64,000 bases of DNA, taken from assembly GCA_936450465.1 (NCBI GenBank), contig OW388289.1, positions 76,186,593 through 76,250,592 of the forward strand, in the 5' to 3' direction. The DNA is from Gibbula magus (lineage: Eukaryota; Mollusca; Gastropoda; Trochida; Trochidae). The position numbers and the translations under genes are program-made. Below are positions 6,755 through 58,164 of the stretch, piece after piece (position 1 is the stretch's first letter; every line of letters begins with the position of its first letter). The notes below the pieces were generated by a model that saw only the letters and a list, made by a program, of their open reading frames with translations, made no database searches and had not been told where the DNA came from.

Positions 6755-6762
6755 ATATATGT
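6755..6762. other. Empty target site for the TA-flanked MITE
   Basis: Copy 0 reads GACTAGATATATGTTCACTC here, and the other copies carry a 480-560 bp inverted-repeat element at the same place (37267-37825, 52670-53149). The single TATA in copy 0 fits an unoccupied TA target. Confidence 0.7.
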
Positions 6763-8626
6763 TCACTCTAACAACTTTTGATCTTCTCAAATTCAAATGA
6801 TAATATTATGTTATTTTGACATGATCAAAACTGACAATTGTACACTAGGGCCAACAAATGGAAAAAAATGTTTCTGGTCTTGATGCGATGACGCAATTTT
6901 GTTTTACAACGTTTTTGTTTTCGAATGAAGAGATAAATTCCGGGGTTTTGTTTGCCTTATATGTTAAATAGGCGATAACTAGGATAAGGACAAACGCCAC
7001 AAATTGATGAAAACACGTTGGCAAAGCCCTCTGGTTGTAACTTCTAACCGTGATGCTCTATCCAAACAAAGGAGAGAACATTAATCATATGGTTCAGGAA
7101 ACTTGGATTATATTCAATAAGATATGGATTATAAAGCTGACAAGCTTGAAACTAGGTTAAATGTAATCATGTTAGAGCAAATCGATTGTTACTTAAATGA
7201 TTAGTTGAGTCAAAACAATGCGATCACAATTACTGGATGAGGTGAAAAATGAGGAAATCAGCATTTTATTGGGTGCTCTGTGGCTTGTGGCGATAAATAT
7301 TCAATCAGATTTTAACAAAATGAAGCCTAAAGAAACAGTCATTTGACAATGGCAACAATCATATTAAACACATACCTTGAGTTATTTTCAAAATGTTAAT
7401 GGGTTGACAGTTTCAGGATGTAGATATTAAACATATTGCAGAATGTGTGCAACTGTAACATATCATTGTAAATTAGCGTTTATCAGTAAGGTATCATGCA
7501 TATGAAATTACTAATCAAACTTGTCAAACGGATGTAAATGTCTATGTAATCGATCAATATAACTTTGATTATACCTATTAAAAAAACGTGTGCTATCGAA
7601 TTTAAGTTTAGTACCCTGGAAAAATCTTAAATGCTAAGAATAATTAATAATTGATAATAAATAAAAAGTTTTATTTTGCAACTATTCCATTCAAGTATTA
7701 AATTAAAACCTACATGTTTAATCATGGAGGACACGTTTTAAGTCATGATAATTGTTCTAAAACCATGAGGCACTGCTCCCCTCACCCCATACACATGATA
7801 GGCTTTTGTTAACTTAATTCAATCAATATTGCTTTTCATTATTGCTTTCTATCTTACTCGCAACAAGTTTCCATGACAACCCTCATGTAGACCATATTGA
7901 ATTGTAGCAGCTTTTACTCAGAAATGTGATATCGTCTGATAGTTTCGATGTTTCACGTCATAATATACTAGTGAAAGTCATTCTTGATAAACTGAATTCC
8001 AAAACCTCTGTAGGTAATGTTTAAAAAATCTGATGTTGTCAATGTGCACCACCGACTTGAGCAGAAACAAAGGTAAAACATTTTTGTGAACACACATCGT
8101 CATCGTGGTCCGCCATCGCCAGTTGTACAACTATAGTTTTGTTCTCATCGCAGTCCCTGTTTGCTTGTTTATGTTAGTGCAATTCGTATTCAATGTTGTT
8201 CTTAAAATCAGTGTTAAGGGTTTTGGCATTATACAACAAACTATGTGTGTATAAGATTAAATTAACATTGTTATATTTGGGATCAGACAATCTACAAAAA
8301 ATTTGAGTGGGGTACCAATCTCAAAAGCTTAACCAAAAGTCCGTTTTGAAAAGGCCATGGTGGCTAAAAGGTGTTATTGTTGCTGTTCAGTGCTGGTTAT
8401 TTAACACTTCAAGTATGAAAGATCTTGGAATCAATCATTCCAGGTAGCAGGATCAGCTCTCATGAATCAAGCTCATCAAATTTTAACTGAAGTAAAACTT
8501 TTTTTCAAAAAAGCTTACGCAGTGTGTTACTTGTCATTCATCAGGTTTATATAGCGCTATTGATCATTTCCCTTGGACTTGACCTGACGCTAGATCAGTA
8601 AATATTTTATCATTGTGTGGATTATG

Positions 8627-8693
8627 GTGGCAGTAGCAACAGCAGTTGTAAACGTAGTAGCAGCAGCAACAGTAGCAGTATTAGTAGTACTAA

Positions 8694-8731
<38 letters not shown>

Positions 8732-8797
8732 AAAACAAAGCAGCAGTGGAAGTAGTTCTAGAATAAGTAGTAGTAGTAGTAGTATTAGTAGTAGTAT

Positions 8798-8865
<68 letters not shown>

Positions 8866-8866
8866 A
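8627..8866. repeat. AGT-type trinucleotide microsatellite (first array)
   Basis: About 240 bp of AGT/TAG/AGC triplets with few interruptions. It yields long spurious open frames (poly-Thr, poly-Leu). Copies 1 and 2 have no such array at the corresponding place (after about 40260 and 54510), so it is specific to copy 0 here. Confidence 0.95.
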
Positions 8867-9784
8867 GAGCTTTCAGATTTACCATTAATTTTATATTTTT
8901 TATATTTCTAAAAAAGAAGATTGATTGTGACTGTTGTTGATTAAAATAGGAAGTTTAATCATGACGTTATATGCATGTGCAAATTTTACAAGCTCCTATA
9001 TTATCTGCAGGGACTAAATATTCGTTATAAGACTTGATTTTGTTCAGGTTATCCAGATAATCAATACAATGTCCCCTTTGGCATTTTTGTTACTTGAAAA
9101 ACATGTTCTGTATTCAACAAAGTATCCACATGTCTGAGCGTGGGGCTTGTGGCTGGTCACATCTCATTCGGAATGGTAATACTAATTAAGTAATCCTATC
9201 AACGTCATTAAATATTTCAAATTATAATTTCTAACAAAACATAAATACTGTGTGGGATGGAGTGTAGTAAGATCGAGTGGCATATTCTGGTGAGGTGTTG
9301 AGAAGTGGAATTTAACGCAGCGTTGGAAATATTTCAATTATATTAGGGTGCCCTGCTTCGATGGAATACCTCAACATTCATACTAAGTATGTTTATCATA
9401 TATTGGGATCCAGGGTACAGGCTTTTTGCCCAGACAATGGACAGATACAGGTTAGATGTTTTGTTGAAGGAATTTGAAATGATTTACATAAAGTCATCAT
9501 CATTATCTTCATATTCCCTTAGTGGTCAGTAAATTGACTGCCGCCACAAGAAGGATATTCAATTTGATTATATTGGATTATGTTATATATATTAACAAAA
9601 TGAAAAATGCAGTATTTCATCTCTTTTAAACACCCATGTATCATTGATATGATGTTATGGCTTTTCGATATCTACCGTTCCATTGTTTTTGTAGTGTTTT
9701 CACAAGTTGACCACATCCCTCCTGTGTTACCGTAATTTCACAAAGGCTAAATAACAACATGAGCATTAAAAGTGCATGAAGCAA
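8867..9784. other. Unassigned non-coding stretch
   Basis: I see no gene, RNA or repeat family here. It lies between the first AGT microsatellite and the inverted block and has no obvious match in the other duplicated copies. Confidence 0.4.
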
Positions 9785-10445: not shown

Positions 10446-12535
10446 CTATCTATCAGGATTTTTAAACGTGTTATTAGCATAAAGCTACGTTATTCGGCTT
10501 TCTTTTGAACCATTCATTTCTAAAATATTTTTGATACTTAAAAAGTTATTAACAAAGGAAGTGGGGTAACGTTTCTTTTGGGCTTTTAGTGTACAATAAC
10601 CAAAAAAGTTAAAACGAAAAGACAGCTATGCCAAAAGTGCCAGTGATATTTGTAACCATTTTAAACGAACAACTTCATTATGCATTGTTTGCTTTGAATT
10701 TACTGCTAACAGTGGTTTAAATCGCAAAGGAAATATTATAAATCTAATATATCACTGAATAATAAATTGAAATTCTGTAATTTTAGTTTTGCTCTAATAA
10801 TAATAATCGGATTTAAATTCACGTTACACATTAAGTTTCATCTGGGGAATATTCCGCTGTTGAACTTACTTACAGCGATATTCAATTAGACATTTCTTAG
10901 CAATATACACAAGGGTGCACCTTGCAAGATTTTATGTCAAAACATCAAATTAGGAATATTAATATTTGAATAAAAAATAATGCCTTTAATCTCTATTATA
11001 ATTAAATCAAATTAGTTTTCATCAAAGGTTATGAACATAACATTTGAACCATTGAAGGTAGTGGTATCCCAAAAGTTACCGTGTTATATTTGTTCACTAT
11101 CTAAATGGCATGTATTTCTTAAAGTTACGAACGTTTGAGAAGTTGACATACAGTAATGATTTGAATGAAGTTAATGTTCACACGTTCAGCCTCCTCATAT
11201 CCAGATCGTGATTAACAGTACAAATCTGTTATTAAATGCAATATGTTCGTGCTATTTCTTAAAATCCATAAGTTTTCAGTTGTTGTCTTCTATAAACTAA
11301 TTTCATAATACGTCGGACTCATTTCACTAAAACCATAACTAATTGAGCATCCATGTTGCAAGGACAATATTCATATGATTCACAGTGATGACATTTCAAA
11401 AAGGGTAAAACATTTAATCACCAAATAGCTTTTGGTGCCACATGGTTTTTCTGCCTAGCACAAGTTTTGCAACAATATCGGCATTGTGGATCACATTCAC
11501 CATGCCAGCTAAGTTATCTCAGAATCTACATTGATCTGATTTCATTTACAACATTTTGGTTTAGAATTAAATTTACATATTTTCAGATTTCCGATTTCTG
11601 AGTAAAGATGAACATTTACTCTTGAGTGTATGTTTATACAGAAACCTGGAACATAAGGTACTTGACTTATATTAAATATTTACCGGGTTCAAAGATTTAA
11701 TTTTCATGTTACATCCCTTTTGAGTTTTCATTGTTACAGTTAGCGAAACTCACTTGTGTACGTGTGTTCGCATCAGGATGAAATATCAATGTGGTCTTAA
11801 TGAATATTTTAGTTGACTATCTAAATATGTCTAATGTTATTTAAGGCTTGTATAAGAAAATATTGATTTTTGGAGTAAAAATGTTCACCAAATATTATCC
11901 AGAAGATTACTTTATGTTGATGATGGGCTCATTCATGGCATTACTGATGGAATCAATGAATATCAATGGACTCCTATCCTAAGTTCTACAAAGAAGCATA
12001 CCATCAGCTGTTCCCATATGTCGAGATTTCATAACATCGGCATCCTCAATCATGGAGATTTAAACTGGAATATTATTCAATAAAGGATCAATCTCTGATG
12101 GATTAAACCTATAAGTTTTTGAATATGAGATCAGATTTAATGTATGTCACCAATCCATTCAAATGTTATCAACAATGTTAAATGATATACTATATGTTAA
12201 GTGTTAAGACCTTTTTAACACCATGAACTAATTGCCTTTACAACCAGTGTGGCCAATATGGTCTCCTTCCTGCCAGTATCGTGTAATGGTTCCTTTTACC
12301 TTTTACCAAGTTTTTGAGGAACCCCCGGAGCTAGTAATATCGATGTATTACAGAAGTTAATTCAATCAGTATGAAACGGGCATTAGTAAAGTAAAGTGAG
12401 GACAGGAGAAAAGGTAGAGTGAGTATTTGATTAAGTTAAAATCGGTGCAATACGAAACATTTTACTTTGAAATATTTCTTGTTCTCTGATAACTTTAAAA
12501 AATTAACTGTTAAAAGGGGTTAATGAAATTTCACG

Positions 12536-12833
12536 AGCATCAACAGGGCATGAGTCAAATGGATCTAGGAAATCAGCATAAATAGTGCATGAATCAAATG
12601 GAGCTATGAAATGAGCATTGATAGTGCATGATTCAAATGGAGCTATGAAATGAGCATCGATAGTGCATGAATCAAATGGAGCTATGAAATGAGCATCGAT
12701 AGTGCATGAATCAAATGGAGCTAGGAAATGAGCATTAATAGTGCATGAGTCAAATGGAGCTGGGAAATCAGCATGAATAGTGGATGAGTCAAATGGAGCT
12801 CGGAAATCAGCATTAATAGTGCATGAGGCAAAG
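12536..12833 (+). repeat. 39-bp minisatellite, copy 0 array (about 7-8 units)
   Basis: The 39-bp unit reads approximately AGCATCAATAGTGCATGAGTC, then AAATGGAGCTAGGAAATC. In this copy many units carry TGAATCA or TGATTCA in place of the TGAGTCA that dominates the later arrays. The array lies just upstream of the AAAGAC site used by the giant insertion. Confidence 0.9.
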
Positions 12834-12910: not shown

Positions 12911-12916
12911 AAAGAC
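12911..12916. repeat. Left 6-bp target-site duplication (AAAGAC)
   Basis: AAAGAC immediately precedes the left tip TATGATGG and is repeated after the right tip at 23497-23502. Unoccupied copies of the same site read GTAAAGACAGTG (43814-43825 and 58157-58168) and GTAAAGACATTG (35033-35044) with a single AAAGAC. Confidence 0.9.
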
Positions 12917-12957
12917 TATGATGGCCGAGAGGGGACATCGCTCTTTCGCCCTCTGGT

Positions 12958-13175
12958 ATCAACACGACAAAGCGATAAAGCGATATAGTCACACGACAAA
13001 GCGATAAGGCTGCACGACAAGGCGATAGAGCAACACGACAAAGCGATAACGTCGCACGACAAAGCGATAACGCCGCACGACAAAGCGATAACGCCGCACG
13101 ACAAAGCGATAGTGTCGCACGACAAAGCGATAGTGTCGCACGACAAAGCGATAACGCCGCACGACAAAGCGATAT
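12958..13175 (+). repeat. 21-bp terminal array (CACGACAAAGCGATAACGCCG type)
   Basis: About ten units of roughly 20-21 bp, core CACGACAAAGCGATA followed by a variable 5-6 bp (ACGTC, ACGCCG, GTGTCG and so on). The mirrored array is at about 23246-23440. It is far richer in GC and CpG than the surrounding DNA. Confidence 0.9.
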
Positions 13176-13465
13176 AACAACGCGCTAAAGCGATAATAAC
13201 AGCACGATAAAGCGAAAGAGCGATAAAGCGAAAGAGCGATAAAGCGAAAGAGCGATAAAGCGAAAGAGCGATAAAGCGAAAGAGCGATAAAGCGATAATA
13301 ACAGCGCGATAAAGCGAAAGAGCGATAAAGCGAAAGAGCGATAAAGCGATAAAGCGAAAGAGCGATAAAGCGAAAGAGCGATAAAGCGATAGAGCGAAAG
13401 AGCGATAAAGCGAAAGAGCGATAAAGCGAAAGAGCGATAAAGCGAAAGAGTGATAAAGCGATATT
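13176..13465 (+). repeat. 8/16-bp terminal array (GCGATAAA GCGAAAGA)
   Basis: Alternating octamers GCGATAAA and GCGAAAGA, with a few interruptions of the type ATAATAACAGCGC. Because the period is 8, all reading frames stay open for long stretches. The apparent 184-codon and 110-codon frames here are by-products of the repeat. Confidence 0.95.
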
Positions 13466-14929
13466 GACATGTCGACCTTAATCTTTTACATAACAATAGA
13501 ATACTGGTTTCATTCAATTTCTTTTCATTTCACTTGATATTTGATTCACTAACATAAGAATGATTTTGATAAATGATTCCACTTTAAATCCCCAAAGGTC
13601 GCTATTATATAAATATAATTAATACAAGTTTATTTTTTTATTAAGAATTTGAATAAACATATAATGAGATTTCTCTATAAAACAACTAACGGTGAATAAT
13701 TGAGAAATCCATGACAATTAAAACTATAATAGATTAATTCAAAAAGTTGACATCGTGTGTGTAAACCTGTACATAGATACTTCCTTAGACATACTTATGT
13801 GACTGAATATGATAGATTTAATCGAGCAAAGTAAAGTTTATATAAATCGGCGCACTTTGATTACTTTTGATATATATTCATCAAAATAATAAGGATGCAG
13901 GTTAGTAGGAAGTCTATGGTATCAACACTTGTATATTATTTAGCCATTCAATAAAAAATTAAAGGAAAGAATAAAATCATAATAAAAAAAACTTGTTTTA
14001 CTTGGTTTTAATGTACACATCAAATTGAAGCAGTGTGCGAAGAGTATACTATATAAAAATATATATATATATGTAGAATATTTGTATGACACGGAAATAG
14101 TTCTAAAGGGAGATAAGACGTTTTGGGAAAATTTACTAATAGTGAACTCAGCGCAATGTCATGAATCATTAGTATGACTATAATAGGATTAACGCCTTCA
14201 GTGTATGGAGCTTAGCTTACATTCGGATAAGTTAATGGGACTTACACAATCTTCCCTTTAAGACTTGAATGGTTTTGCTCATATTTATTAAATTTGAAAA
14301 GTAATTATTGTAGATTATTATAGATATGTACATCTTATTAGTTTATTAATAATATCACTGTGTAAACGTAGTTTAGCAACAATTTACCACTGATGAAATT
14401 AATAATCATATTTTAGCTCTTCAAGCCTAAAGGTTTGGGTGTGAGGGCGAAAGAGGAAGGGAGCTTTACTTGGTTTAGTTTAGGAGTAAATGTCTTTTTT
14501 CACTGTTTGTCTCATGATTTGAGAATATGCCTTCCCCATTTGCATTCGATAGGATTCACTAACTGTGAGAATGTGTTCAATCATCATTATATGTGTTCCA
14601 TCTATTGAGTCTGGGAAATTAGTTAGTTTCCATTTGCCGTCATAGCCTATTATATATTTCGATATCATATTGTTTTAATTTTTGAAACCGCAAACCATTA
14701 TGCATGGCATGGTATGATTTGGTATAATTGTACCCTTCTCAGCACACGGATAGCCAACAGACTTCCAATGGTGAATAATAGGATCTGATTGAGGGAATAA
14801 TACAAAAGGGGAATAACTAAAAGAATTAACATTAACCTTTCTGCATTTGAGTTTTTACACACTCTGCTAATCACTCACTCGCAAATTTGCTAAAACATAC
14901 ATGTTAAGATATGAGAGCAGCATGAGTAG

Positions 14930-15365
14930 ACCCAGATTGTTAAAATGTGAACATTTTAATTCTCTGTATCAAATCGTTTTGAAGAAGAAGTCTTTTAAAG
15001 ATTTTAGGTTGGACCCCCTGTCACATCCATATTTGGTGAGGGGTCAGGACCAAATGAACAAATAAAATTTTATATGTAAAATCTGAAAATGTCATCTTCC
15101 TATGTCAACTGGTTCCGGAGAAAAAGTCGTTTAAAGGTTCTGTTAATAATGCCTGCCACGCCAATATTTGATGGGTGGCGAAGTTCAAATGAACACACTT
15201 TGATCCCTTGTGTGCAAGGTACCTCTCCGCAAAATTTCAGCTTTGGGTGTGCTGCGGTTCATGAGGAGGAGTCGAAAATGTGAAAAGTTTATGGTTTGAC
15301 GACGGATGACGGACGGACGCCGCACAACGGGCCATGTCACTTACAAGAGAGATCTGCAAATAGTA
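14930..15365 (+). repeat. Mollusc-type interspersed repeat with GACGGATGACGGACGGACG tail
   Basis: Two tandem degenerate copies of a GAAGAAGTCTTTTAAAG / GAGAAAAAGTCGTTTAAAGG motif (14980 and 15118) are followed by AAAATTTCAGCTTTGG (15230-15245), a purine-rich GAGGAGGAGTCGAAAATG and the GACGACGGATGACGGACGGA tail (15299 on). This order is familiar from a very abundant interspersed repeat in bivalve and gastropod genomes. The 64-codon open frame across it is not considered a gene. Confidence 0.6.
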
Positions 15366-16400
15366 TCGATAATTGACAACGTTGACCCGGTGTGTTTATA
15401 CCCGTACACGTAGATCCTCCCATAGACATACTTGTGTCAGCTCTCTTTTACCATTGCTTCATTGAAAGCATATTAATTTTTGATTTCCAATGGCGGCATG
15501 GTTCTTTGTCTCTAGTAAATAATTATTTCGCTTAGAAGAAGTTCTTCTAACGCCAGTAAAATAGCAGTTTCGTTTACGACAAAATAGTTTTAAAATTATC
15601 CCTGAAGATTTCTGTTGATCCAGATGAATACGTCAAACTTTCTTCTTACTACAGCGTTTAAAAACCAATAAATTCAAAATACACCTATTCCTCCAGTATT
15701 CGTCCTTTAAATGATGTTGAAGTTGATCAAGTGTGATTGTTCTCTGTATACAATGTATGCTTGTGACTTCTATTTTCTTTATTGTAAACGAGGTTGTCGT
15801 GAAATGAATTCATTCGAGGTAAACACTTATTATAATTATTATTAAATGAGTTATAAGTTTTATTGCGCAAAGTTCAATGCAGTTTAACTAAAATAACGGT
15901 CTATGCAAAAATCAGAATATCTGACTACTCTTAATCAATATATGTTAATCAGAATAAGCAATGTGAAAGTGCAAGTGCGGACACTATTGTATCAACATTG
16001 GTGTAAAATATTTACCCATTCACTATTTTAACAATGTATTATCATCAATATAATATATATTTGTCTTACATGTTTAACTTATGTGAATGAAATTGATTCA
16101 GTTTTTGGAGTATATAAAAAAGTATATCATAGTGGCATATTTGTGTGACATTGTTTATCGAAATATGCCTTGAAAATGGTTCTGAATGCCATGCTTAATG
16201 AAAATAAACATGTATTTGCATATGTACTAATAGAGTGTGAGTCACCATAAATTATTAGTGTCATGATAATTATATGTTCGCCTTCAGTTTACGTAGTTTA
16301 CAATAGGATAAGTAATTGGAGGTTAAGAAATCTTTTCTTAAGCACTTAAATGACTCCATTCTGCTTACATTTATGAAACTGTAAGATTACTTGTTCAAAT
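15365..16400 (+). repeat. Degenerate second copy of the subterminal module
   Basis: Positions 15370-15440 (GTTGACCCGGTGTGTTTATA ... ATAGACATACTTGTGTC) resemble 13745-13815. Positions 15985-16390 (TATCAACATTGGTG ... AAATGACTCCATTCTGC) resemble 13918-14280 in the same orientation. The element therefore contains a nested, diverged copy of its own subterminal sequence. Confidence 0.55.
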
Positions 16401-16489
16401 AATATGTCACTACATGTATGTCGAGACACCCATTTTGTTTCAAGATACTTTATTTGGCTTAAATACGTGCACGTGCTGAATACGATATA

Positions 16490-16890
16490 TGCTGATTTCA
16501 GTTCAATTAATTTCACTTAACTTGCAAATCAACCCATATCGCCCAATATATATGATTACTAGTTTCAAATGAAAGTCGAGCAACATCTGAAACCGAAATT
16601 TCACGTCGCATTTACATCCACAGATGACCCAGTAAACATTCTCAACCAAACTTTGTCCTATTGTCTGTTGTAAATAAGTTTCCAAAATGACATTTGACTG
16701 AATGACGGGCGTCAATCGCGGTGCATTGTCACGTCTTTTAACTTTACATAATTACATTGTTACGTTAATGAACCGATAAGCATTAACATTGTAATTTTCA
16801 ACAACAGTACATGTACTTCAGGATTCAAATTGCTCGACATGTATTACAGTTTTCTGATAAATTTCCGCATAAATAAAACAGCCATTTCTT
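16490..16890 (+). repeat. Internal direct-repeat module, first copy
   Basis: The stretch AATTTCACTTAACTTGCAAAT ... AAAGTCGAGCAACA ... GACTGAATGACGGGCGTC aligns with 19600-19970 in direct orientation (AATTTCACTTGACTTGCATAT, AAAGTCGAGCAACAGC, AACCAATTAACCCGC). Homology is clear for about 250 bp and weaker beyond. The 70-codon minus-strand frame here is not conserved in the second copy. Confidence 0.65.
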
Positions 16891-17738
16891 TAAACTGTTT
16901 TACATATCAAGTAGCATCATTTGCTTCATATATATGTAGACCATTATCGTTCTAACACTCATTATATATACCATAGAAGGAAGTATTATCTATGCAGTTA
17001 ATAAATAATGGTAACGAGGAATTTTGTAAAACAGAGAAGGAAAATGTGATTCATAACTGTTATCAACTGGTGGTGTGTAAAACTATTTTGCAATAAACAT
17101 ACGAATCTTAGTATAACTTTGGATAACGGCCGTCTTCTCTTTTGGTTTTCTCTGGTCAAGATGTTAAACCACTCAATCGTACTGCGCACAATGCACATCT
17201 TTATAAGGGTTGCAATCCGGCAGAGCCACATGTAAGAAAATAAGGTTACATACAACTTGGCGCTCCCGGTTTTTGTGATCGTATGAATGTGGCTCTCCCG
17301 GCAATGGTCGGGAGTGCTGGTCCATGTTACGGTTTATAATAAACTATGATGTGTCTTGCAGTCTTTTTACTTTGTATTATCATATTGTAGGAAGGCACAG
17401 GACAGGGGAGTTTCATATTTCATTGATGTTTTCACCCCATAGCAACATATTTTATTTTATGTAATGTACACGTATGTGTGTCATGTTTTATATGTTATTT
17501 GGTCAGATGTAATTTTATCGAATACTGAACGTTGCTGAAAATCATCATTTTAATGCTAACCACTTCAGAATAGTGACAGATATACAGTTGAAAAGTCGTG
17601 ACCTAAAGAAAAACTACTACAACACTTTATTTAAAACTAAACAAACAAGATTAACTCCATATTCACTTTATAATAAGCTCATTATCTATCAATGGGTGGC
17701 GCTAATTTGATAAACGGTATCATCCCGAAATCAATCGT

Positions 17739-18130
17739 GGGCTTCGCGGCAACGAAGAGTTTACACGACGTGTGGCCCTCGCGACATTTTGTAGTTTTCT
17801 AGTGTGGCTTTCGCGGCAACGAGGAGTGTACATGTCGTGTGGCCCTCGCGACATTCTGTAGTTGGCTTTCGCGGCAACGAGGAGTTTACATGTCGTGTTG
17901 CCCTCGCGACATTCTGTAGTTTTCTAGTGTGGCTTTCGCGGCAACGAGGCGAGTTCATGTCGTGTGGCCCTCGCGCCATTCTGTAGTTTATTAGTGTGGC
18001 TTTCGCGGCAACGAGGAGTGTACATGTCGTGTGGCCCTCGCGACATTTGTAGTTTTCTAGTGTGGCTTTCTCGGCAACGAGGAGTTTACATGTCGTGTGG
18101 TCCTCGCGACATTTGTAGTTTTCTAGTGTG
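17739..18130 (+). repeat. 67-bp GC-rich tandem satellite, six units
   Basis: Six units start at about 17739, 17807, 17865, 17932, 17999 and 18065. The consensus begins GGCTTTCGCGGCAACGAGGA and continues GTTTACATGTCGTGTGGCCC, TCGCGACATTCTGTAGTTTT, CTAGTGT. The second unit is 9 bp short. The array is rich in GC and CpG within AT-rich DNA and sits near the centre of the giant element. The open frames on both strands (60-95 codons) are repeat by-products. Confidence 0.9.
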
Positions 18131-19599
18131 GTTTTCCCGAGCAGACAACCTTTCGAATAGCCAAACTCAATTCATTAACTTTATATTAATAATCATAGAA
18201 ACCATGTCAAGAATGAAAACCAAGATTACACGTACAATGCTAAAATATTGACACTATATTCCGAGATTATATAGACGGTTGAAGTACACTCAACATTTGC
18301 ATTATTATAAGCATTTATGTAGAGTTTACACCTTGAAAGTCAATGTGTAAGTTTCTTGTGCAAGCTTTACTATGTAGATGAATAGTAATCTCAACAAGGT
18401 GACGTGCAAACTTGGATATCTACTGAACAGCAAAATAACGCCAGTCCACTAAACAATTTCGTAATTACTGATAACGCTGTAATGAGAAAATTTATAACAT
18501 CACAGCATTCCAATTTTGATGACATCATAATAATAACGTGTTGAACACATGCAGACGTAACGATAAGTCAATACTTGTATAGAACTTCTGGATAACATTA
18601 TATTGTGCCATAATCATTCTCTGGGAAAATAGCCACATTTCTGTTCAGATGATGAAGGGCAAAATGTGCTTTTAAATGCAATTAGAACATGTGCAAACAC
18701 TCCCGTGAAGTTGTTTGATGCAAAACCCCTGTCTTTGCTGATGTTGATTTGACGTTATGGCGTCATTCATGAATTTCATTCAGAATGGTTCTATTGGTCT
18801 CATTTTGGTAAAACTTCAAGGTATTGTATTCCTTGTCGGTACCAAGGTGTTCCACGAGCACATTTATAGTAATTTCAAACTGTACAGCATGCAGTTAGCC
18901 AATATCCCAGTTTCCGAAAAAAATTCACTTTTATTTTGCAAAGCATTTACTTCTTAAACATTGAGGCAAGAGTCACAATTTTGAGTCTTTTCAAAGAGCA
19001 AATCTCGGATTACAGCACGAATAATTGATTTTTTACCAGGCTCATGCAGATCATGTTACTATGACAACATGTGACGTGCAATTTCGCGAACTGATACCAT
19101 TTGACTTTGCAATGGTAACCAACTATACTCTACAGTATCAATAGCTCCACATGTTCTCTGACATTTACTAATGATATGAAAAACCATAGGTTTATATGCA
19201 AACAGAAACTATAATCAATATATTAAAGATACGTAGTATAAAATTTGAATATTTATTTCACATACTTAATTACTTTATAGTGTGTCATGTTCTTAATACA
19301 GGTCAATACTGGTATTTTTGGTGATATGGTGATTTAACCATCAAAACTAAGTTACTCACACGAATTAAAATAAAATGGTTTCCGGTATTTAGTTATTCAT
19401 TACTTGATAACGATATGTGAATCCACTAAATGCTGAAATATATACGCTTTTGGTTGAATAATCTTATATCCAAAAAACTTATTTACAGATAAAATGTAAA
19501 AATAATGCATATGGATAAAACATTTACAAATATGTTTTAAAGAGCCATTAAACATTTATAGGAATATTTACTTTGCCTTCATGCATGCCGACAGACCAG
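18131..19599. other. Giant-element interior, no gene recognised
   Basis: AT-rich sequence with only short unrelated open frames (the longest about 66 codons at 18757). I see no transposase, integrase, recombinase or polymerase motif in either strand. Confidence 0.5.
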
Positions 19600-19970
19600 A
19601 TATTCTGATTTATTCTGAAGTACAAATAATTTCACTTGACTTGCATATTCAGTCCCTAACGCCAAATGTATGCTAATCAAATAAAGTCGAGCAACAGCAT
19701 TTTGTACGTGAAGAAGCCGAATTTATACGTTTCCTATATGTGCACAGTAGTTATATGACCAATTACATAATACCAACCCACATCTGACTGTCTATTAAAG
19801 GTAAGTTTCCAAACTTACATTTAACCAATTAACCCGCATCTTTGTCAAGTTTTCAATAATAAATCGTGACTTTCACCTTTATAATATCACTACTAAATGA
19901 ACTAGCCTTAAATTGATAATGTTCATCAGCAATCAGTACTTTTCGATAAAATAACTTCATTTATTACGTT
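19600..19970 (+). repeat. Internal direct-repeat module, second copy
   Basis: Direct counterpart of 16490-16890. It shares TTTCACTTGACTTGCATAT-, AAGTCGAGCAACA- and GTAAGTTTCCAAACTTACATT-type segments in the same order. The two copies bracket the 67-bp satellite. Confidence 0.65.
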
Positions 19971-21114
19971 TGACATAATGTGACCCCAACAACATACTCA
20001 ATGGGTTTTAAAAGGAACACTCAGTGTTGCATTGTAGTATTTTATCAAGAAGTATTGACTGTTATTGAAAATTAACTCTTAAGCGCCAATCACTAAATGA
20101 TATTAATAAAGAGAATTATTTTGTTATAATGATTGACGTTCAATGTCCGCAATTATCATTGTGATGAACGTCACACCAAAAATATAATAAAATCCCTTTT
20201 CACGACAAGAATAATTGTTGAATTATGATGAAACGGGAAAATTACCCACGCTCGGATAAAACCCAAAGTACATGGGAATTGAAACACGTTTGACAGAAAA
20301 GTTAACCAAAAATAGAAGCTGACTCTTTGGTTGTTCCGTATTAATCAGTTTGCAAATTTATGTGTTTACAAGCACTACCGACAGGGTCAAAACGTCTCAT
20401 TTTTATCAAGAACATATACTTTTCACTGAGTCAGAATACCCTTTTGTATTATTTATCCATTTCTCAATGTTTTAAGAAAGACTTTACCCATATATTACAT
20501 TGAATTCCTGGTTATGAAAAATATATTCAATTGTTTAACTCTTTAGCGAAATAGATGTAAACAACTAGGATGTCCTCAACAGTCAGGAAAATGTATTTTA
20601 CTACTATGCACTGTATAATGCCATGGGCCTCCTTTCTGATTAAAACTATCTCTTTATGTGAGCAGAATGAAGCCATTCAAGTGTAAAAGAGACGATTTTG
20701 TAACCTCAAATACGCATTCGAATGTCGCTGAGCTCCATGCACTGAAGGCGTACAACCTATTACCATCATACTAATGATTCATGGCGATGCGCGGAGTTCG
20801 CATTTTCAATAAATTTACCCAAAACGTGCTTTTTCATGAATCAGACCCTTTAGAATTATTCCTGTCGCACATATTAAAACACAATGTCACACAAATATTC
20901 TACTGTGATATAGCCTAATAGTGTCTTATACGTTATGATGTGCACAATGTAACCCAGTAAACAAATTTATATATTTTATTTTGATAATGATAGATTATTT
21001 TATTCTTTCCTTTGATTTGTTAGTGAATGTCTAAATAATATACCAGTGTTGTTACAATATATTTCCAAACTTGTTTCTTACATTATGTTGATGAATATAT
21101 ATCAGAAGTTATCA

Positions 21115-21937
21115 ATTTCAATTCTTTATTTCTGAAGTGTAGGCCATCGGCCCGTAACTACATATCGTATATATGACAAGACATGATGTGTACAGCAACA
21201 GTCATTCAATTAACATTTTTGGTACATGGCATGAAAAATAAAGCTTGCTAAATTACAAGTTTACAATTCGATATTGACATGAGGATTTTAAATTTAGTTT
21301 TATTTGGATTTGTACAAACAGTTTCCGGCAAATGATTCAGGCGGAGCTCTTTAAATTTGGAACACACAAGAAGGAAATGGTTTTCATCCTCAATTATAGC
21401 CGTCGTCGCATTGTAAACATAATCTATCATTTCTATCTATATTATAAAACCGACCCGTTTCAATTCTTAAATGAAAAACACGTAAATTGCCCGAATACTC
21501 TAAACATTTTAACAACAACCGCATTCAAATATAATTTTTTAGACAGTGAAGCTTTAAAATAAGAGTAAGATATGGAGTTGGTGCTGTTTTGAAGTGAACT
21601 ATACCAATTCAGTTCATGAATACATTTTAGTCGACACAGAAATTTTGAGAAACACGAAGTAGGAAGATAAACAAATTGTTGGTCCCAAACACAACCAAAG
21701 CCCAATTAGCCAATTAGCTAATTAGCCAGTTTGGAGACTGGCGCTAGTTAGGCCTTGCGTGGGTAGATGAAGCCCAAACTGTACAATAAATCTGGAAACT
21801 TCGAAGCCCAATTAACTTTATTATTTTCTATACCTTTTAACATCATATATAACATTTTTTGGGATGCCGAGTGTCAGACATATTTAATGATTTTAAGCTA
21901 TATTTGACAGCTTTTTCAGTAAAAATATAGAGTAAGT
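21115..21937 (-). mobile_element. LINE 3' fragment inserted in the right inverted repeat
   Basis: The left inverted repeat lacks this segment. It is flanked by an imperfect 11-bp duplication, AGAAGTTATCA (21104-21114) and AGAAGAAATCA (21938-21948). Read on the minus strand it carries the end of a non-LTR retrotransposon protein: GRFYNIDRNDRLCLQCD with a CxxC pair, then, after a frameshift, IEDENHFLLVCSKFKELR with the HxxxxC half of the usual C-terminal zinc knuckle. A stop follows near 21250. The 3' tail GGGCCGATGGCCTACACTTC then AGAAATAAAGAATTGAAAT is the kind seen at bivalve LINE ends. The copy is 5'-truncated and dead. It postdates the giant element. Confidence 0.8.
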
Positions 21938-22349
21938 AGAAGAAATCAGAGTGCGCCGATTTAAATTTATATAAACTTTGTTTTGCTCAATTAAATCAAT
22001 AATAACCAGTCACATAAAGTATGTCTAAGAAAGTATTTATGTACAGGTTTACACACACCATGTCAGCGTTTTGAATTAATCTATTAGAGTTGCAGATGTC
22101 TGTTTTAATTAGCATGGATTTCTCAATTATTCACCGTAAGTTGTTTTATAGATGTTTATTCAAATTCTTAATACAAAATAAACTTGTATTAATTATATTT
22201 ATATAATAGCGACCTTTGGGGATTTAAAGTGGAATCATTTATCAAAATCATTCTTATGTTATGTGAATCAAATATCAAGTGAAATGAAAAGAAATTGAAT
22301 GAAACCAGTATTCTATTGTTATGTAAAAGATTAAGGTCGACATGTCAAT

Positions 22350-23245
22350 ATCGCTCTTTCGCTCTTTCGCTCTTTCGCTCTATCGCTCTTTCGCACTATC
22401 GCTCTTTCGCTCTATCGCTCTTTCGCTCTATCGCTCTTTCGCTCTATCGCTCTTTCGCTCTATCGTTCTTTCGCTTTATCGTTCTTTCGCTTTATCGCTC
22501 TTTCGCTTTATCGCTTTATCGCTCTTTCGCTTTATCGCTCTTTCGCTTTATCGCTCTTTCGCTCTATCGTTTTATCGCTCTTTCGCTTTATCGCTCTTTC
22601 GCTTTATCGCTTTATCGCTCTTTCGCTTTATCGCTCTTTCGCTTTATCGCTCTTTCGCTTTATCGCTTTATCGCTCTATCGCTCTTTCGCTTTATCGCGC
22701 TGTTATTATTGCTTTATCGCTTTATCGCTCTTTCGCTTTATCGCTTTATCGCTCTTTCGCTTTATCGCTCTTTCGCTTTATCGCTCTTTCGCTTTATCGC
22801 TTTATCGCTCTTTCGCTTTATCGCTCTTTCGCTTTATCGCTTTATCGCTCTTTCGCTTTATCGCTTTATCGCTCTTTCGCTCTTTCGCTTTATCGCGCTG
22901 TTATTATCGCTTTATCGCTCTTTCGCTTTATCGCGCTGTTATTATCGCTTTATCGCTCTTTCGCTTTATCGCGCTGTTATTATCGCTTTATCGCTCTTTC
23001 GCTTTATCGCTCTTTCGCTTCATCGCTCTTTCGCTTTATCGCGCTGTTATTATCGCTTTATCGCTCTTTCGCTTTATCGCTCTTTCGCTTTATCGCGCTG
23101 TTATTATCGCTTTATCGCTCTTTCGCTTTATCGCTCTTTCGCTTTATCGCTCTTTCGCTTTATCGCTCTTTCGCTTTATCGCTCTTTCGCTTTATCGCTC
23201 TTTCGCTTTATCGCTCTTTCGCTTTATCGTGCTGTTATTATCGCT
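22350..23245 (-). repeat. Expanded 8/16-bp terminal array (right side)
   Basis: About 895 bp of alternating TCGCTTTA and TCGCTCTT octamers, with several TCGCGCTGTTATTA interruptions. The left partner has about 290 bp. The 400- and 360-codon open frames (SLYRSFALS-type repeats) that cross this array are artefacts of an 8-bp period free of stop codons in these frames. Confidence 0.95.
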
Positions 23246-23440
23246 TTAGCGCGTTGTTATATCGCTTTGTCGTGCGGCGTTATCGCTTTGTCGTGCGACA
23301 CTATCGCTTTGTCGTGCGACACTATCGCTTTGTCGTGCGGCATTATCGCTTTGTCGTGCGGCGTTATCGCTTTGTCGTGTTGCTCTATCGCTTTGTCGTG
23401 CAGCCTTATCGCTTTGTCGTGTGACTATATCGCTTTATCG
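23246..23440 (-). repeat. 21-bp terminal array (right side)
   Basis: Mirror of 12958-13175, about nine units of CTTTGTCGTGCGGCGTTATCG type. The order of variant units (TAGTCA, GGCTG, GAGCAA and so on, from the tip inward) matches the left array, so the tips share a recent common origin or are kept alike. Confidence 0.9.
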
Positions 23441-23496
23441 CTTTGTCGTGTTGATACCAGAGGGCGAAAGAGCGATGTCCCCTCTCGGCCATCATA

Positions 23497-23502
23497 AAAG
23501 AC
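23497..23502. repeat. Right 6-bp target-site duplication (AAAGAC)
   Basis: Directly follows the right tip CCATCATA. Sequence beyond it (AATGTTATTTTATTATCTAC) is the continuation of the copy 0 unit, as in copies 1 and 2. Confidence 0.9.
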
Positions 23503-24247: not shown

Positions 24248-24550
24248 CAGTAGCAGCAGCAGTACTAGTAGTAGTAGCAGTAGCAGCAGTACTAGTAGTA
24301 GTAGCAGCAGCAGCAGTAGTAGTAGTAGTAGCAGCAGCAGTAGTAGTAGCAGCAGCAGCAGTGTCAGTATCAGTAGTAGTAGTAGTAGCAGCAGCAGCAG
24401 TAGTAGTAGTAGTAGTAGTAGTAGTAGCAGTCGTTGTAGTAGTAGGAGCAGTAGCAGCAGTAGTAGTAGTAGCAGCAGCAGTGCCAGTGTCAGTATCAGT
24501 AGTAGTAGTAGTAGTAGCAGCAGCAGCAGAAGCAGTAGTAGTAGTAGTAC

Positions 24551-24585
<35 letters not shown>

Positions 24586-24586
24586 A
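24021..24586. repeat. AGT/AGC trinucleotide microsatellite (second array, longest)
   Basis: About 565 bp of AGT and AGC triplets with interspersed GTGTCAGTATCAGT blocks. Its homologues at 44371-44620 and 58731-58811 are shorter. Poly-Ala/Val and poly-Leu open frames here are not genes. Confidence 0.95.
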
Positions 24587-25317
24587 TGTGTTGATCAAAC
24601 GTTTTTCAAATAACCTTGTTGTTTATGTTGCAAGAACTACATCTGATCCTAACTGCATAGTTACTAGTATATCTCAGTCAAAAAGAATTGACTTTTAAAG
24701 CCAATATCATGTGTTTGACAGCTGGAATGTTGCCCCTGTTCTCCAGAAACATAAAGACAGACTGGTCAGCCTCAAAGGACCACATGTATTGCAGATGTCA
24801 GTGATAGTCGAGTCTGGTGCCTCGGGAGTCAATGCTGCAGTGGCAATATTCATCTTTGTTATCGTGTAGGGTAACAGAGTCCTTCTTGATCTAGTTCACA
24901 GTCAGACCACATTTGTTAATTGTATGTGCACTATGTCTGTGAAATATCGATTATGGTATAATTCTACTATTAGTTGTGATAGACACCAAAGATGTAAACC
25001 ATGAAGAGACAGCACAACACTTCACACACAATCATTTCTAAAATCGTATTTATTTAGCAGCATGATACGGTATTAATTATTTGAAACAACACACAAATGG
25101 AAACAGACAATGTGAGAAATGAACGAGGCTATTTGTTCAGGAATAGTGTGTCAGTAAAATGACTACATAACGTTAACTTCAACTGAAAATAGTGGCGGGT
25201 TCTTTGTTATTTGTCACTTCCTTGACATGACCGTTAGTTTTAATCTCAAAGTGGGTTATATAAACAGTAAACCAAGTACAAAAAGAATTAGAGCTTATTA
25301 TTGACAATATTGATTGT

Positions 25318-25640
25318 TATACCCCCGCTACGACTTAGAAGGGGATATTTACTGCTTGGCGTGTCCATGCATGTGTGCACGTGCATGCGTGTCTCAGAAA
25401 TAGTGGTATATGACTTAGAATCTTTAACTTTGGTATAGAAGTAACCTTAGACACTGACATTTTGACTTTTATTGGTTTCAACTTCAAGGTTTTAACTTGA
25501 CCTAAACCGGTCCAATTTCGGGGGTGAGAAAATAGAACCATAGAAAGTGCTAGAAATGAAGACAAAGAAGGGATGAGAGATGGATAAAGTGATAATGCAA
25601 TGAAGACGTTATAATATACTAATTTAAGTGGACGTATTCT
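25318..25640. repeat. ATACCCCCGCTACGACTTAG-type dispersed repeat in copy 0 tail
   Basis: The segment begins TTATACCCCCGCTACGACTT and continues through a GTCCATGCATGTGTGCACGTGC palindromic-looking patch. A near-identical block is at 45350-45690. The 110-codon minus-strand frame across it is interrupted in the other copy (65 and 66 codons in two pieces), so it is not under coding constraint. Repeat-family identity is not established. Confidence 0.4.
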
Positions 25641-27561
25641 CGAACAAATGGTCTTAGATTCAAACAATATGCTTTATTTTGTTTCATATGGATGAATTTC
25701 TTCAGCTGCATGCCATATCCAATCTTGATTTAGATCAAAATGTGCAGGACTACAATAACCCCATATATACAAAGGTTATTTTCATTATAGCCAAACACAA
25801 GTTCTTGTTTTAAAATACAACTACTCAAAGGCGTCCCCAAGCCAACTGTATTGATTAAAGCAAAAAAACATCCAGTGAAGAATATTTGGAGAATGCCTTT
25901 TCATGAATGTCAGTAAATCCATGTCGATTGCCTCTTGAGATATTTCTGTCTCTTGGTTTCACAACTTTTGACATAAAATACATTTGCAAGAAAAGTTATT
26001 ACCTCAGGAGGGCATTTTATGCAATGTTTGCCTTTGAAGTGTCTACTAAGATTACGTCATAGAATGTTCTTTAGGTCATGGAGAGTAATCCAGCAATAGT
26101 CTTCTTGGGGAGTTTTGAGAAAAACATAAACATTACTAATATGATGTATTGACATACTTGTGGTCATTTTGTCATGTGAAAGTATTTCAAATTAAGAAAA
26201 ACTGAGAAGTATGAGAATGAAAGTTTTACTTGAAAGACTATTATTGAAGTCTAAACGAAATTCAAATTATATGTGGCTGCACTTGAACACACAAAAACGT
26301 GAACCAATGATTTTTTTAAAAACTAGTGTTTTTTTAGACCCATATGATCTATCATTGGTTGGATGAGGAAAGGCTTTTTTTACATGAAACTATGTGATTT
26401 AAGCGATGACAAATGGGTGATGTGACGTAAGGAGAACTCGCACTGGCCTGTGATAAAATTGCCTGCTTAATTGGACAATACATCATTTAAAAAAACGTCA
26501 AGATCCTGGAAGGGTATGGGAACCTCTCCTTCTTGACCTGTGTGAAACTTACCATTTTAGGCGGTTAAAGAAACCATTAAATCTTTTTCATGATGGTTAT
26601 GTATTCTATTTCGATTGCATTACACATGCATTTGCTTTCAGTTTTTATTTATAGTTGCAGTTATAACATAATTCTTTAGGCTGACTAAATATGGACCTGT
26701 AGTAAACTCATCATTTTGTTCAAATTGATCTTCTATGAGTGATCAAACATATAATTCATCAACGACGCCTCAGTTGTGCATGTCGTGTCTAGATCACGTA
26801 CATACTTACAGACTCAATAAATTGCATCATCATGCTGTGGCGTGTCATGCATCAAGTCAACCATATGACTTATCATTGTAAGGATTATCCGCCAAGAAGA
26901 ATAATAGGTAATATTTAATTCAGTAAACTGAATTTTATCTTAAATGTTTATTATATTATTTTAAACTTCTGAACATAAATTACATATTTCACACTTTCTA
27001 ATGAAGTGTTAGTTTGATTAATTGTTCTCTTATGATTGTCATCTGTACAACAAACTCTGGTGTTAAACCAAGTCCAAAATAATACTTATATAATACCTTT
27101 TGGGAAATATACAATTCATGTGTATACAATTGGAAGCAAAGCTAGTATTAAACATTTGTTTTATGGTTGATTCATTCAAAGTAAACATGTGCGTTCAATT
27201 AAATGACAACAAAATGCTCAAACCTTTTTTGCTGACAAAAAGTGGAATAGACGTTTTTTGTCTGAAATAAGATTAAGATGCAGAAACCAATTTCAATACA
27301 AACAAAGGTGTGTCCTATCTTCGAATCGTGCTTACAAAAGGAACTATTTCTGAGTGAAACTTCAGAATGAAATAATTCCAATCATTTTTTTGCAGTTAAT
27401 TTCACCTATAATTTCAATGCCATAAATTTTAGATAAACTTTGAAGAGAACAATACACCCTCAATTACATTAATGCGCTTCCAGATGATAAGAAAACGCCA
27501 ACGGCTGCGACTTACGTTTTGAGTTGCTATAGTCTTTCAGACGGTAAAAGGCAACAACGCA

Positions 27562-28035
27562 TAGTAATAAATGTGTACGTTCAGGTACCATAATCCAGTT
27601 GCTTTACAATAACGCCCTTGTATTATATGACGAGCAGTGAAATACTGGGATTTATCAGTGAAATAAACTGTCTATCAAGCTACAGTGAAAATAACTTATA
27701 TTTTCACTGCGAACGTTGACTGATATGATTTGACAGCATAAAACAATGGTCTCACGCGGCGAATTGGCTTATGACGTCACAGTGTTGCTGTGGTGACGGG
27801 CTGTTCCGTTCGGCGCGAAAACTACCCTTTTCGGACGTAATTAGAAGGATAACATCATATAATAAATAGAATATCCGTCAATTCTTGACAAATACCATGT
27901 TTGTCTCATCTCGTGAGTATATATCAAGAAAAGACAGATATCCTCTATGTATTTGGTGGGAGCAAGTACGTTATATTTTTCGTTAGAGGTACAAAGGTTT
28001 GAGATGCCCAGTTCAAGCAACATCTAATCAGTATT
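27562..28035. mobile_element. About 470-bp indel with stem-loop and TGACGTCA site
   Basis: Copy 1 joins GGCAACAACGC directly to AACAACATATATAAATATTG (about 47590-47600), while this copy has about 474 extra bp. Inside are an 11-bp perfect stem CAGTGAAAATA/TATTTTCACTG (27683-27693, 27699-27709) with a 5-nt loop, and the palindrome TGACGTCA at about 27772. The segment is richer in CpG than its surroundings. Similar CAGTGAAAATA stem-loops are frequent in bivalve repeats, which is recollection and not tested. No target duplication is evident. Confidence 0.5.
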
Positions 28036-33048: not shown

Positions 33049-36000
33049 AGAGGGTATAACGTCTGCTTAGCTTGCAATATTTTATTTTATGAACGATAAG
33101 ATGCCTGAATATGCAATATTTTATGTCAAAGCATTGAAACAAACTCGGAATATTAATATTTGAATTGTGATCATGCCTGGAAGTTGACATACTGTAATTA
33201 TTTGAATGCAGCTCAAGTTCAACCTCCACATATCCAGATCGTGATTCCTTGAACAAATGTCTTATCAAATGCAATATGCTCATGCTGTTTGCTAAAATCA
33301 AAAATTAACATTTCACGTCTTCTATAAACTAATTTCATAATATGTCGGACTCATTTCATTTTAAATTCAAGCAGTTAATAATTATTCACTTGTGGTTAGC
33401 AATGTTTAGAAATAAAATTATAACGGGTCAATTGAGCATCCACGTTGCAAATATCGTATTCATATGATTGCCAGTGATGACAGTGAAAAGGTAATACATC
33501 TAATCACCAAATAGTATTTGGTGCCACATGGTCTTCTGCCAAGTACAGGTTCAGCAACAATGGGCGTGGTGTTTAACACTTACAAGGCCAGCTGCATTAT
33601 CTCAGAATCTACAATGATCTGAATTCATTTGCAACATTTTAGTATAGAATTAAATTTACATATTTACATATTCACAGATATCAGATTTCAGAGTTGAGAT
33701 GAACATTTACATTTATTTGAACGATAAGATGCCTGACTTGTATTTGCTATTTATCGAGTTAAAAGATTTAATTTTCAAGTTACATCCCTTTTGAGTTACA
33801 GTTAGCAAAATTCACTTGCATATGTGTGTTCGCATCTGGATGAAATATCAATGTGGTCATAATGAATAATCTAGTTGACTATCTAAATATGGCTAATGTT
33901 ATTTTAGGCTTTTAATATTTGGAGTTAAAATGTTCACCAAATATTATCCAGAAGATTACTTTATGTTGATGATGGGCTCATTCATGGCATTACTGATGGA
34001 ATCAATGTATATCCTAAGTTCTACTAAGAAGCATACCATAACCTGTTCCCATATTCCTTGATTTCATAAGATCGGCCATAGTCGTGTAGATTTTAAAAAG
34101 AATATTATTAAATAAAGGATGAATCTCTGATGGGTTAAAACAATAAAATCAAAAAGGGTAAAACATTTTATCACCAAATAGCTTTTTATGCCACATAGAG
34201 TTAGTAAGTTCACCAAAATTAATCCAGAAAATTACTGTATGTGTTTGATTGTCATATTTATTGCAGTACTGATTGAATTCAATGTATATCATTGGAAATC
34301 CTATCCTAAGGTCTACATCAACCGTCCCATATACCACGAATTCATAACATCAATCATCGTTCATGGTCAGTCGAACAGGAATTGTATTCAATAAAAATTC
34401 AAACTTTGACGTGTTACACCAATAAATCACTTGATGTGAGGTCAGATTTAATCCTGTTAGAGCACATGACTTGTCATAAATCGATCCATTCATTTCATGT
34501 TATAAACAAAAGTATACTATCAAATAAGTAAAATACTATTTGGTAAGTTTTAAGACATTTAGCACCACCATCTAATTGCCTTTACAAGCAGTTTTGCCAA
34601 GGTGACCTCCAATTGGCAGCATCGTGTGGTTTATTTTACCAATTACCAAGTTTGTGAGAAAACCCCAGAGCTAGTATTATCGATGTTTTACAGATATTAA
34701 TGCAATCACCATGAAAAGGGCACGAATAAAGTGAAGTAAGGACAAAAGAAAAGGGAGAGTATCTGATTAAGTTAAAAACAAAGTCATGCGAAGAAGTTTA
34801 CTTGTTTACTCTACAATGAAATCTTTCTTGTTCTCTGATAAACGCGCCAACTCAATGACGTTATATCAGTGTTGTCGGTGTTAAAAGGGCTAATGAAACT
34901 TCACGAGCATTAATAGTGCATAAGTCAAATGGAGCAGGGTAATTAGCGAGAAAGGCTTTAGGAGTGCCTAAATAAAAACCAATGAAATCGGAAAGAAACT
35001 CCTTTTGAACGTTGAAAGAAAATAAATTGACAGTAAAGACATTGTTGTTTTATTGCCTTTAGCACTGATTGTAAAGAGCACTTGTAACAGCGTGAAATAA
35101 TCATTGTATGTTGTTTAAAAAGTTTTTTTTCATATTGGGAATCAATGTTTATAGGTTGCAATTGTTTGTAATATTGCAAGATCGTTGTTAACAAGCACTG
35201 GATTACATGAATATACTTTTCTCTTGATAATGATAATAACACACTGTTCAACGATCAACACATCTATCAGTTTATAACTATGAAATACAAATTACACTGA
35301 TGTAATTTAAATGGGAAAACATTTACATTTTTACTTTGCTTATCTGGCTTAGGAACATTAATCTCAATTTTCAAAATAACGCTAGTTGACGTAAATTGAC
35401 GACAACTTGTTTATCCTGATATGAAAGGTACAATATTTTTTACTATATATGTTTGCATATTGAAAAAGTAAATACCTGATGCATTTTTTAAACATGTGGG
35501 TGTCATTTAGAATTAATATATAAAAGAATTCAAATGATAAAGAGGTCAAATTTCAACCTTGACCTTTGACCTTTCGGTTTCAGTGAGCTTTGATCATTGT
35601 GTTGCCAAAATAAAAGTTCATTATAGGTTCCAAACACATACCTATTCTGTAGTTTTTCGACATAAGAAATTTTAATTTTAAAGAGGCTGCAGCACGTTTT
35701 CTAATGGAAATAAAGATAAATAACAAAATGGAAAGAATTCTACCAATTGCAAAACAATCTCAATCAATAAATAGAGTTCTAAAGCGAATGGTTATGGTTC
35801 GGTTGATCCATTTCCCATCCTCGAATTATTAAAAGGTATTCACACTAAAATGGCTGCTAGCAGTTAACTTTCATACGTGACACCTTTTCCATGACTACGC
35901 GGATAATCGGTTTGTGTATTGGGCTGCCTAGTAAAGTAAAGATATACTGCAAACAATTTTATTATCAATAGAAAATGTCTATATACGAAAAATTAAATTT

Positions 36001-40767: not shown

Positions 40768-40818
40768 ATCGTTATCGTTATCGTTATCGTTATCGTTATC
40801 GTTATATCGTTATCGTTT
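40768..40818 (+). repeat. (ATCGTT)n hexanucleotide array, copy 1
   Basis: About eight hexamers with one ATATCG break. The matching array in copy 2 is at 55018-55067. Confidence 0.95.
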
Positions 40819-43815: not shown

Positions 43816-43821
43816 AAAGAC
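43816..43821. other. Empty insertion site of the giant element (copy 1)
   Basis: ACAGTAAAGACAGTGTTATT is continuous here, with one AAAGAC and no insertion. Confidence 0.85.
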
Positions 43822-44372: not shown

Positions 44373-44405
<33 letters not shown>

Positions 44406-58158: not shown

Positions 58159-58164
58159 AAAGAC
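58159..58164. other. Empty insertion site of the giant element (copy 2)
   Basis: GACAGTAAAGACAGTATTAT is continuous, with one AAAGAC. Confidence 0.85.

Follow-up and report, generated by a model that had tools for sequence, protein, structure and literature searches.

Larger size is commonly held to lower transposition, and the locus described here raises the question of how more than 10 kilobases (kb) of DNA without recognisable genes, enclosed by inverted arms of satellite repeats, can move and multiply. The element occupies positions 12917-23496 (10,580 base pairs, bp) of a 64,000-nucleotide stretch of the Gibbula magus genome, hereafter the window (C1:76186593-76250592), and is bounded by AAAGAC on both sides. 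It has paired inverted tips, a 6-bp duplication made by its insertion, many near-identical copies and no recognised coding capacity, and its family comprises copies of about 0.2 to more than 12 kb in one genome. We regard it as fairly probable that this is a large, recently amplified, non-autonomous family of cut-and-paste DNA transposons with Foldback-type arms, moved in trans by an enzyme probably of IS3EU/GingerRoot type.

Borders and layered arms of the window copy

The two ends of the element are strikingly alike. The tips agree at every position, as the initial annotation had claimed, and the outer 347 bp of the two ends align at 324 of 326 positions, one 21-bp unit aside. The AAAGAC duplication claimed alongside them also stands. 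Of the three empty sites proposed in paralogous segments, each carrying AAAGAC once, 43816-43821 and 58159-58164 are strong from the identity of their joined flanks; 35035-35040 is a weak one, though its motif is kept.

Borders, arms and empty sites (position, strand, feature, basis):
12911..12916, unstranded: target duplication AAAGAC, left copy (sequence reading, flank comparison)
12917..12964, plus: left tip, starting TATGATGGCC and containing ATCGCTCTTTCGC (48/48 to right tip)
12973..13215, plus: left 21-bp array (8+8+5), about 11 units (tandem-repeat analysis, unit splitting)
13205..13463, plus: left 8/16-bp array, CGATAAAG/CGAAAGAG (tandem-repeat analysis, unit splitting)
13464..13866, plus: left unique arm, outer (compared with right arm, 99.5% over 13464-13663 and 91% over the 200 bp that follow)
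13857..14292, plus: left unique arm, inner (about 73% to right arm)
20656..21115, minus: right unique arm, inner (arm alignment)
21940..22348, minus: right unique arm, outer (arm alignment)
22349..23229, minus: right 8/16-bp array, exceeding its left counterpart in length (tandem-repeat analysis)
23260..23440, minus: right 21-bp array (tandem-repeat analysis)
23449..23496, minus: right tip, ending GGCCATCATA (48/48 to left tip)
23497..23502, unstranded: target duplication AAAGAC, right copy (sequence reading, flank comparison)
35035..35040, unstranded: empty site in the most diverged of the three paralogous segments (joined flanks 365/567, 64.4%, identical)
43816..43821, unstranded: empty site in a paralogous segment (526/568, 92.6%)
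58159..58164, unstranded: empty site in a paralogous segment (541/585, 92.5%)

Both arms run inward in the same order, from tip to 21-bp array, 8/16-bp array and unique sequence. Splitting the arrays into units reveals that a single 8-bp word family (CGATAAAG, CGAAAGAG, CGACAAAG) underlies all of them, the 21-bp unit being two such words plus five bases, and the unit variants follow one another in nearly identical order at both ends. The tip stretch ATCGCTCTTTCGC is the reverse complement of an array stretch, a 13-base match reached by none of 2,000 shuffled tips; a hairpin in the tip DNA was not notable (z -0.86). CpG dinucleotides reach 2.5-2.8 times expectation in the arrays compared to 0.65-0.66 in the flanks. 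None of the three forward frames of the right array (22283-23497, plus strand) is closed by a stop (404, 365 and 304 amino acids, aa), and the array could therefore be mis-annotated as protein.

The unique parts of the arms are 87% identical over 13464-13866/22348-21940 and 70% over 13857-14275/21115-20670. The ordered series of the initial annotation holds, and its kilobase-long inverted repeats do so only when the broken inner layer is included. Identity drops inward over blocks of about 200 bp (194/195, 173/190, 145/197 and 165/227), and none of 5,000 block permutations was equally steep. Gene conversion within the window copy was rejected as the source of this gradient, given that the window arms yield the same figures when compared with the opposite arms of ten giant copies: 85.9-87.1% in the outer and 67.8-70.2% in the inner part, the latter in fragments only for L018 (L numbers denote sequences fetched from outside the window). 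Because these opposite-arm identities are equal in all ten, the gradient had become established ahead of the present burst and was inherited; past conversion between arms is one possible origin of it.

The window is AT-rich (33-34% G+C). A 39-bp minisatellite (unit GAGCATCAATAGTGCATGAGTCAAATGGAGCTAGGAAAT) adjoins three paralogous segments (12535-12832, 43210-43737 and 57355-58062) and has long open frames of 131-184 aa on its minus strand. Diverged tandem segmental duplications of about 79-96% identity link 24326-31171 to 44373-50765, 36516-39020 to 51920-54097, and 39860-43737 to 54098-57886. A 254-aa frame with a retrotransposon RNase H domain lies at 59712-60476 on the minus strand.

Copies across the genome

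Searches of the 1.47-gigabase assembly (140 contigs) strongly bear out the proposed transposon family. An 18-base tip, allowing at most one mismatch, occurs 729 + 710 times genome-wide (reversed control 0 + 3), and a 36-base marker of the giant form, counted by exact matches, 131 + 124 times (control 0 + 0). Forty tip places scored in the initial genome search, the best 40 of 1,019 candidates, each reached 100%. Among the matches listed, the giant markers formed 39 adjacent plus/minus pairs and left 21 places unpaired (99 of 100 places), with spans of 10.6-39 kb, a median of 12.9 kb and 30 of the 39 pairs below 14.5 kb; the largest spans may bridge the ends of separate copies. Shorter tip pairs, again among the matches listed, fall at about 5-6 kb, 0.6-1 kb and 231 bp.

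Copies of 231 bp to 1 kb hold little beyond two satellite arms, and with arrays masked only the tips match in seven pairs of 0.2-1 kb. The right arm is common to the 5-6-kb class at about 90-95% (one 100-bp piece at 86%; L039 without part of it) and also occurs in L049 (93-94%) and L050 (97%). The length of tip plus array, far more variable than the unique DNA, is 547-785 bp in 16 left arms and 853-1725 bp in 13 right arms; a value of 5756 bp, which stems from a duplicated end, was left out of these ranges. A copy of 10.7 kb (L053/L054), near the window copy in size, is a deletion form starting at 16559.

Both ends were read in 27 tip pairs, drawn from the minority of family copies that was read: the window copy, ten giant copies, C3:58747478-58761666, twelve shorter copies, two of 7.5 and 9.3 kb, and one of 10.7 kb. 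Perfect 6-bp duplications flank 19 of the 27, all 19 different (1/1, 9/10, 1/1, 7/12, 0/2 and 1/1 in the same order), and other copies with the same tips and duplication, by which the initial annotation was to be judged, are thereby in evidence. In a set of 19 duplications (18 perfect ones, without that of L053, plus GATACA), G or C fills 25 of 38 bases at positions 1 and 6 and 16 of 76 inside (Fisher p 8e-6), a pattern noticed after looking. A rearranged locus (L018 101-1231, L019 9380) presents a solo arm, an inverted copy of the right flank (16 bases seen) and then a full element, with GTATAC at three borders, which suggests aberrant, hairpin-like transposition or repair.

Divergence among the giant copies is 0.2-1.7% for the left arm, 0.4-1.8% for the middle and 0.5-1.4% for the right arm, and such small distances indicate a recent spread. 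Their trees have mostly near-zero inner branches, and two stretches duplicated within one copy (L016/L017) differ by 0.1-0.3%.

Interior, coding capacity and the search for an enzyme

The view that the element is non-autonomous, without a recognisable transposition gene in its interior, is upheld. Its open frames do not exceed chance, the longest (111 aa) being matched by 51 of 200 shuffles, and none of 19 short frames scanned in it reached a curated Pfam cut-off. Among the ten giant copies, which were read in pieces, non-array frames of at least 150 aa are absent in seven and occur in the other three only within nested inserts. Frame scanning took in the copies other than L002-L009, L030-L036, L053 and L054, and domain scans covered those 19 frames from the window element and, from other copies, 16 frames or parts of frames, not all frames. 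The larger copy with the same tips and a gene for a transposase, integrase or polymerase, which the initial annotation proposed to look for, did not emerge among the longer copies read. Those of 17-21 kb gave no support as autonomous elements, their surplus DNA consisting of nested inserts, some with frames that have no match, or of a duplicated end. Nor did the 5-6-kb class or a 2.95-kb copy: the frames of L048 and L039 are reverse transcriptases of long interspersed nuclear elements (LINEs), a 131-aa frame of L038 has no match, and the remaining non-array frames of the 5-6-kb class are short, not all of them scanned.

One nested insert of about 6 kb occurs in two giant copies (L015, about 2568-8977; L012 7206 to L013 3198), in the central 67-bp array in L012/L013 and beside the terminal array in L015. 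The version in L015 contains inverted repeats of 1.35 kb (99.6%) and a C2H2 zinc-finger/P-loop frame of 577 aa with weak Pox_A32 similarity, the counterpart of which is split by a piece border in L012/L013. Another, of about 5.9 kb (L018 5409 to L019 1335), has AGTCCAGTCAATTTAA-like ends and a frame of about 1,469 aa, joined from 1,202 and 267 aa where two pieces meet. This frame has no match in Pfam or NCBIfam; the comparison with PDB covered its residues 1-1,201. In a 21-kb copy of which only the interior was read, an insert of about 9.4 kb (L051 6554 to L052 6995) is flanked by GTATT on both sides, and its frames of at least 1,139 aa and 460 aa have no Pfam match. The long frames of L018 and L052 are unrelated to each other.

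Beyond the genome, five scans of viral contigs with tip, array and arm patterns returned no match, and a megablast of 13464-21940 against phages found none. A search of a protein database with the final 85 residues encoded across the right array and tip gave 6,527 candidates, none at E 0.001. A single 21-base match in prokaryote genome contigs (L001) was judged to be chance; it lies in a bacterial coding sequence that we take to resemble mutY. As to the description of the family as new, nothing similar turned up in the viral, phage, prokaryote and protein collections and the literature searched, with Repbase and other animal genomes outside the search.

Interior features (position, strand, feature, basis):
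15332..16370, plus: partial copy of the subterminal module, older, in direct orientation and split in two (nhmmer)
16112, unstranded: empty site of a TA-flanked miniature inverted-repeat transposable element (MITE) of about 0.53-0.57 kb (comparison with fetched giant copies)
16450..16823, plus: interior segment directly repeated at 19568-19932 (E 1e-14 and 5e-16)
16564, unstranded: empty site of an insert of about 1.3-1.7 kb (comparison with fetched giant copies)
17743..18136, unstranded: central 67-bp tandem array, 6 copies (tandem-repeat analysis)
19568..19932, plus: second copy of the 16450-16823 segment (E 1e-14 and 5e-16)
21116..21939, minus: presumed decayed, 5'-truncated LINE interrupting the right arm (translation read by eye)

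Nested partial copies of the subterminal module, already noted in the initial annotation, were recovered at 15332-15437 (nhmmer 7e-13) and 15922-16370 (4e-32), and five reversed-sequence controls for the direct pair gave no match. The order of arm, gap, partial arm, segment, middle, segment and arm would fit an origin in which a shorter ancestor was joined to a second copy of itself. The insert at 21116-21939, which we take to be a LINE from a motif in its translation, has three frames without Pfam match. It is flanked by near-matching 9-base words (TGATTTCTT/TGATAACTT; the left-arm counterpart is TGATTACTT), and both its junctions occur in ten of the ten fetched giant copies. The MITE at 16112 is present in eight of these ten; the other two have TA-CATG-TA, as if it had been excised leaving a footprint, and the window copy a plain TA. 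Both ends of the insert at 16564, missing from the window copy, were found in nine giant copies and one end in the tenth (L028). An earlier reading of the window copy as a deletion derivative was replaced, given its clean empty sites for two insertions of other copies, which precise loss might also have left; on the simplest reading it represents a form older than both.

Placement, rival explanations and meaning

The hallmarks of the IS3EU/GingerRoot group, which the initial annotation had not considered, are present in the element. As the relevant passages of PMC10045372 have it, IS3EU elements always end in TA..TA and usually make 6-bp duplications, and GingerRoot elements make 6-bp duplications and mostly end in TA..TA. 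The element likewise has TA..TA termini (TATGATGG...CCATCATA) and 6-bp duplications. Fungal IS3EU ends are given as TAYGG..CCRTA in PMC12730594, to which the TATGA of the element is a partial match, in four of five bases. The TA..TA ends of other copies are not independent, as the copies were selected by this tip. Unlike the group, the element copies read contain no recognised transposase, and its satellite arms and 12-kb non-coding bodies have no mention in the cited passages on the group; neither 'tandem repeat' nor 'satellite' occurs in the available text of PMC12730594. A derivative of IS3EU/GingerRoot is probable, not certain, and we place moderate confidence in it.

In its architecture the element works like a Foldback element, and the initial judgement that this type does not fully fit is not supported. 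According to the parts of PMC4079207 that describe Tetris of Drosophila virilis, this transposon has a terminal domain, a tandem-repeat domain of variable length that has sequence in common with it, and a unique inner domain; conserved frames are absent from complete copies, and the arm repeats of Galileo contain extra transposase sites. The same three-part arms, variable array sharing terminal sequence and non-coding middle recur here. In contrast, Tetris duplications are of 8-9 bp, or 9-10 bp in rearranged copies (PMC4079207), versus 6 bp. The element further differs in array units that form two layers on one 8-bp word and in a marker with more than 100 places per strand. Sea urchin TU elements are foldback elements as well. 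MITEs resemble the family in being non-coding and of high copy number, and its 231-bp to 1-kb forms fit them, whereas the giant form is more than ten times larger. Dada elements, which the text at hand in PMC3706591 describes as inserting in small RNA genes and lacking terminal inverted repeats, differ from an element with long inverted repeats in a window without Rfam (gathering) or tRNA hit.

Several observations weigh against our preferred reading. The superfamily placement rests on two short hallmarks, the chance of TA at an end is about 1/9 at this base composition, and a transposase was recognised in none of the copies read, a minority of the family. Duplications are imperfect in L039 (one mismatch), L038 and L041 (two each), and absent at five of the 27 pairs (L010/L011, L044, L046, L049 and L050). 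At L010/L011 the duplication is missing because one copy lies inside another and one end is lost: the left flank is element sequence, and GATACA, on the right, recurs as the left flank of the outer copy L036. Element-like DNA (91.6% to 13506-13611) adjoins the right tip of L044, and L046, L049 and L050 have a second tip nearby, the likely but unproved causes of the other four. The same family might be moved by another foldback-linked transposase, of a Mutator-like element (MULE), P/Galileo-like or hAT6 kind, which we consider unlikely. MULEs make duplications of 8-10 bp and P elements of 7-8 bp, which counts against them, and hAT ends are usually CA..TG, not TA..TA. The foldback architecture known from Tetris and Galileo (passages in PMC4079207) speaks for such an enzyme, as do Tm1, a Mutator/Foldback family, and a hAT6 group with 6-bp duplications, both as named in paper titles, while the Tetris duplication lengths speak against it.

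A transposase superfamily not described before would account for the failure to recognise an enzyme and to find anything similar in the collections and literature searched, and seems to us rather improbable, since the tip and the length of the duplication agree with those of a known superfamily and the absence is bounded by the scope of the search. Polintons/Mavericks end in AG..TC, as opposed to TA..TA, and their genes were not recognised as part of the element in the copies read, the weak Pox_A32-like match of two copies lying inside a separate nested insert. A Polinton stripped of all genes, to which the 6-bp duplication (so given in part of PMC10045372), long inverted repeats and size range would point, is very improbable. 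The idea that this is no transposon, but an inverted duplication that was amplified or a product of assembly, deserves hardly any credence: arrays are hard to assemble, and rearranged copies exist (L018, L010/L036, L046), but 19 different duplications at dispersed sites, the empty sites and the same layout in 16 left and 13 right arms contradict it. Within the assembly sequence, other copies of the same layout answer the concern that the structure is an artefact.

Under the preferred reading, that of a family moved in trans, the TATGATGG tip would be recognised by a DDE/integrase-like transposase, most likely of IS3EU/GingerRoot type, that is encoded at another place in the genome. The tandem arrays would be multiplied copies of a putative recognition word, present also in the tip in inverted form, and may raise the affinity of each end; slippage or unequal exchange could lengthen and shorten them. 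The size series, from 231-bp arm-only copies to 12-13-kb forms with passenger DNA, would arise through recombination and the loss of internal sequence. More tentatively, satellites of the recognition word may have become arms that let foreign passenger DNA be carried efficiently in any amount between 0 (231 bp) and about 12 kb, a natural, cargo-tolerant giant MITE system, possibly with an unrecognised transposase, that also seeds satellite DNA.

It is unusual for non-coding DNA of more than 10 kb to remain mobile at such copy numbers. Should the arrays be multiplied binding sites, the family would permit a direct test of whether satellite arms enable the transposition of long cargo. For gene transfer in laboratory cells it provides natural ends suited to long cargo. 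The family also shows a young route from transposon ends to dispersed satellite arrays.

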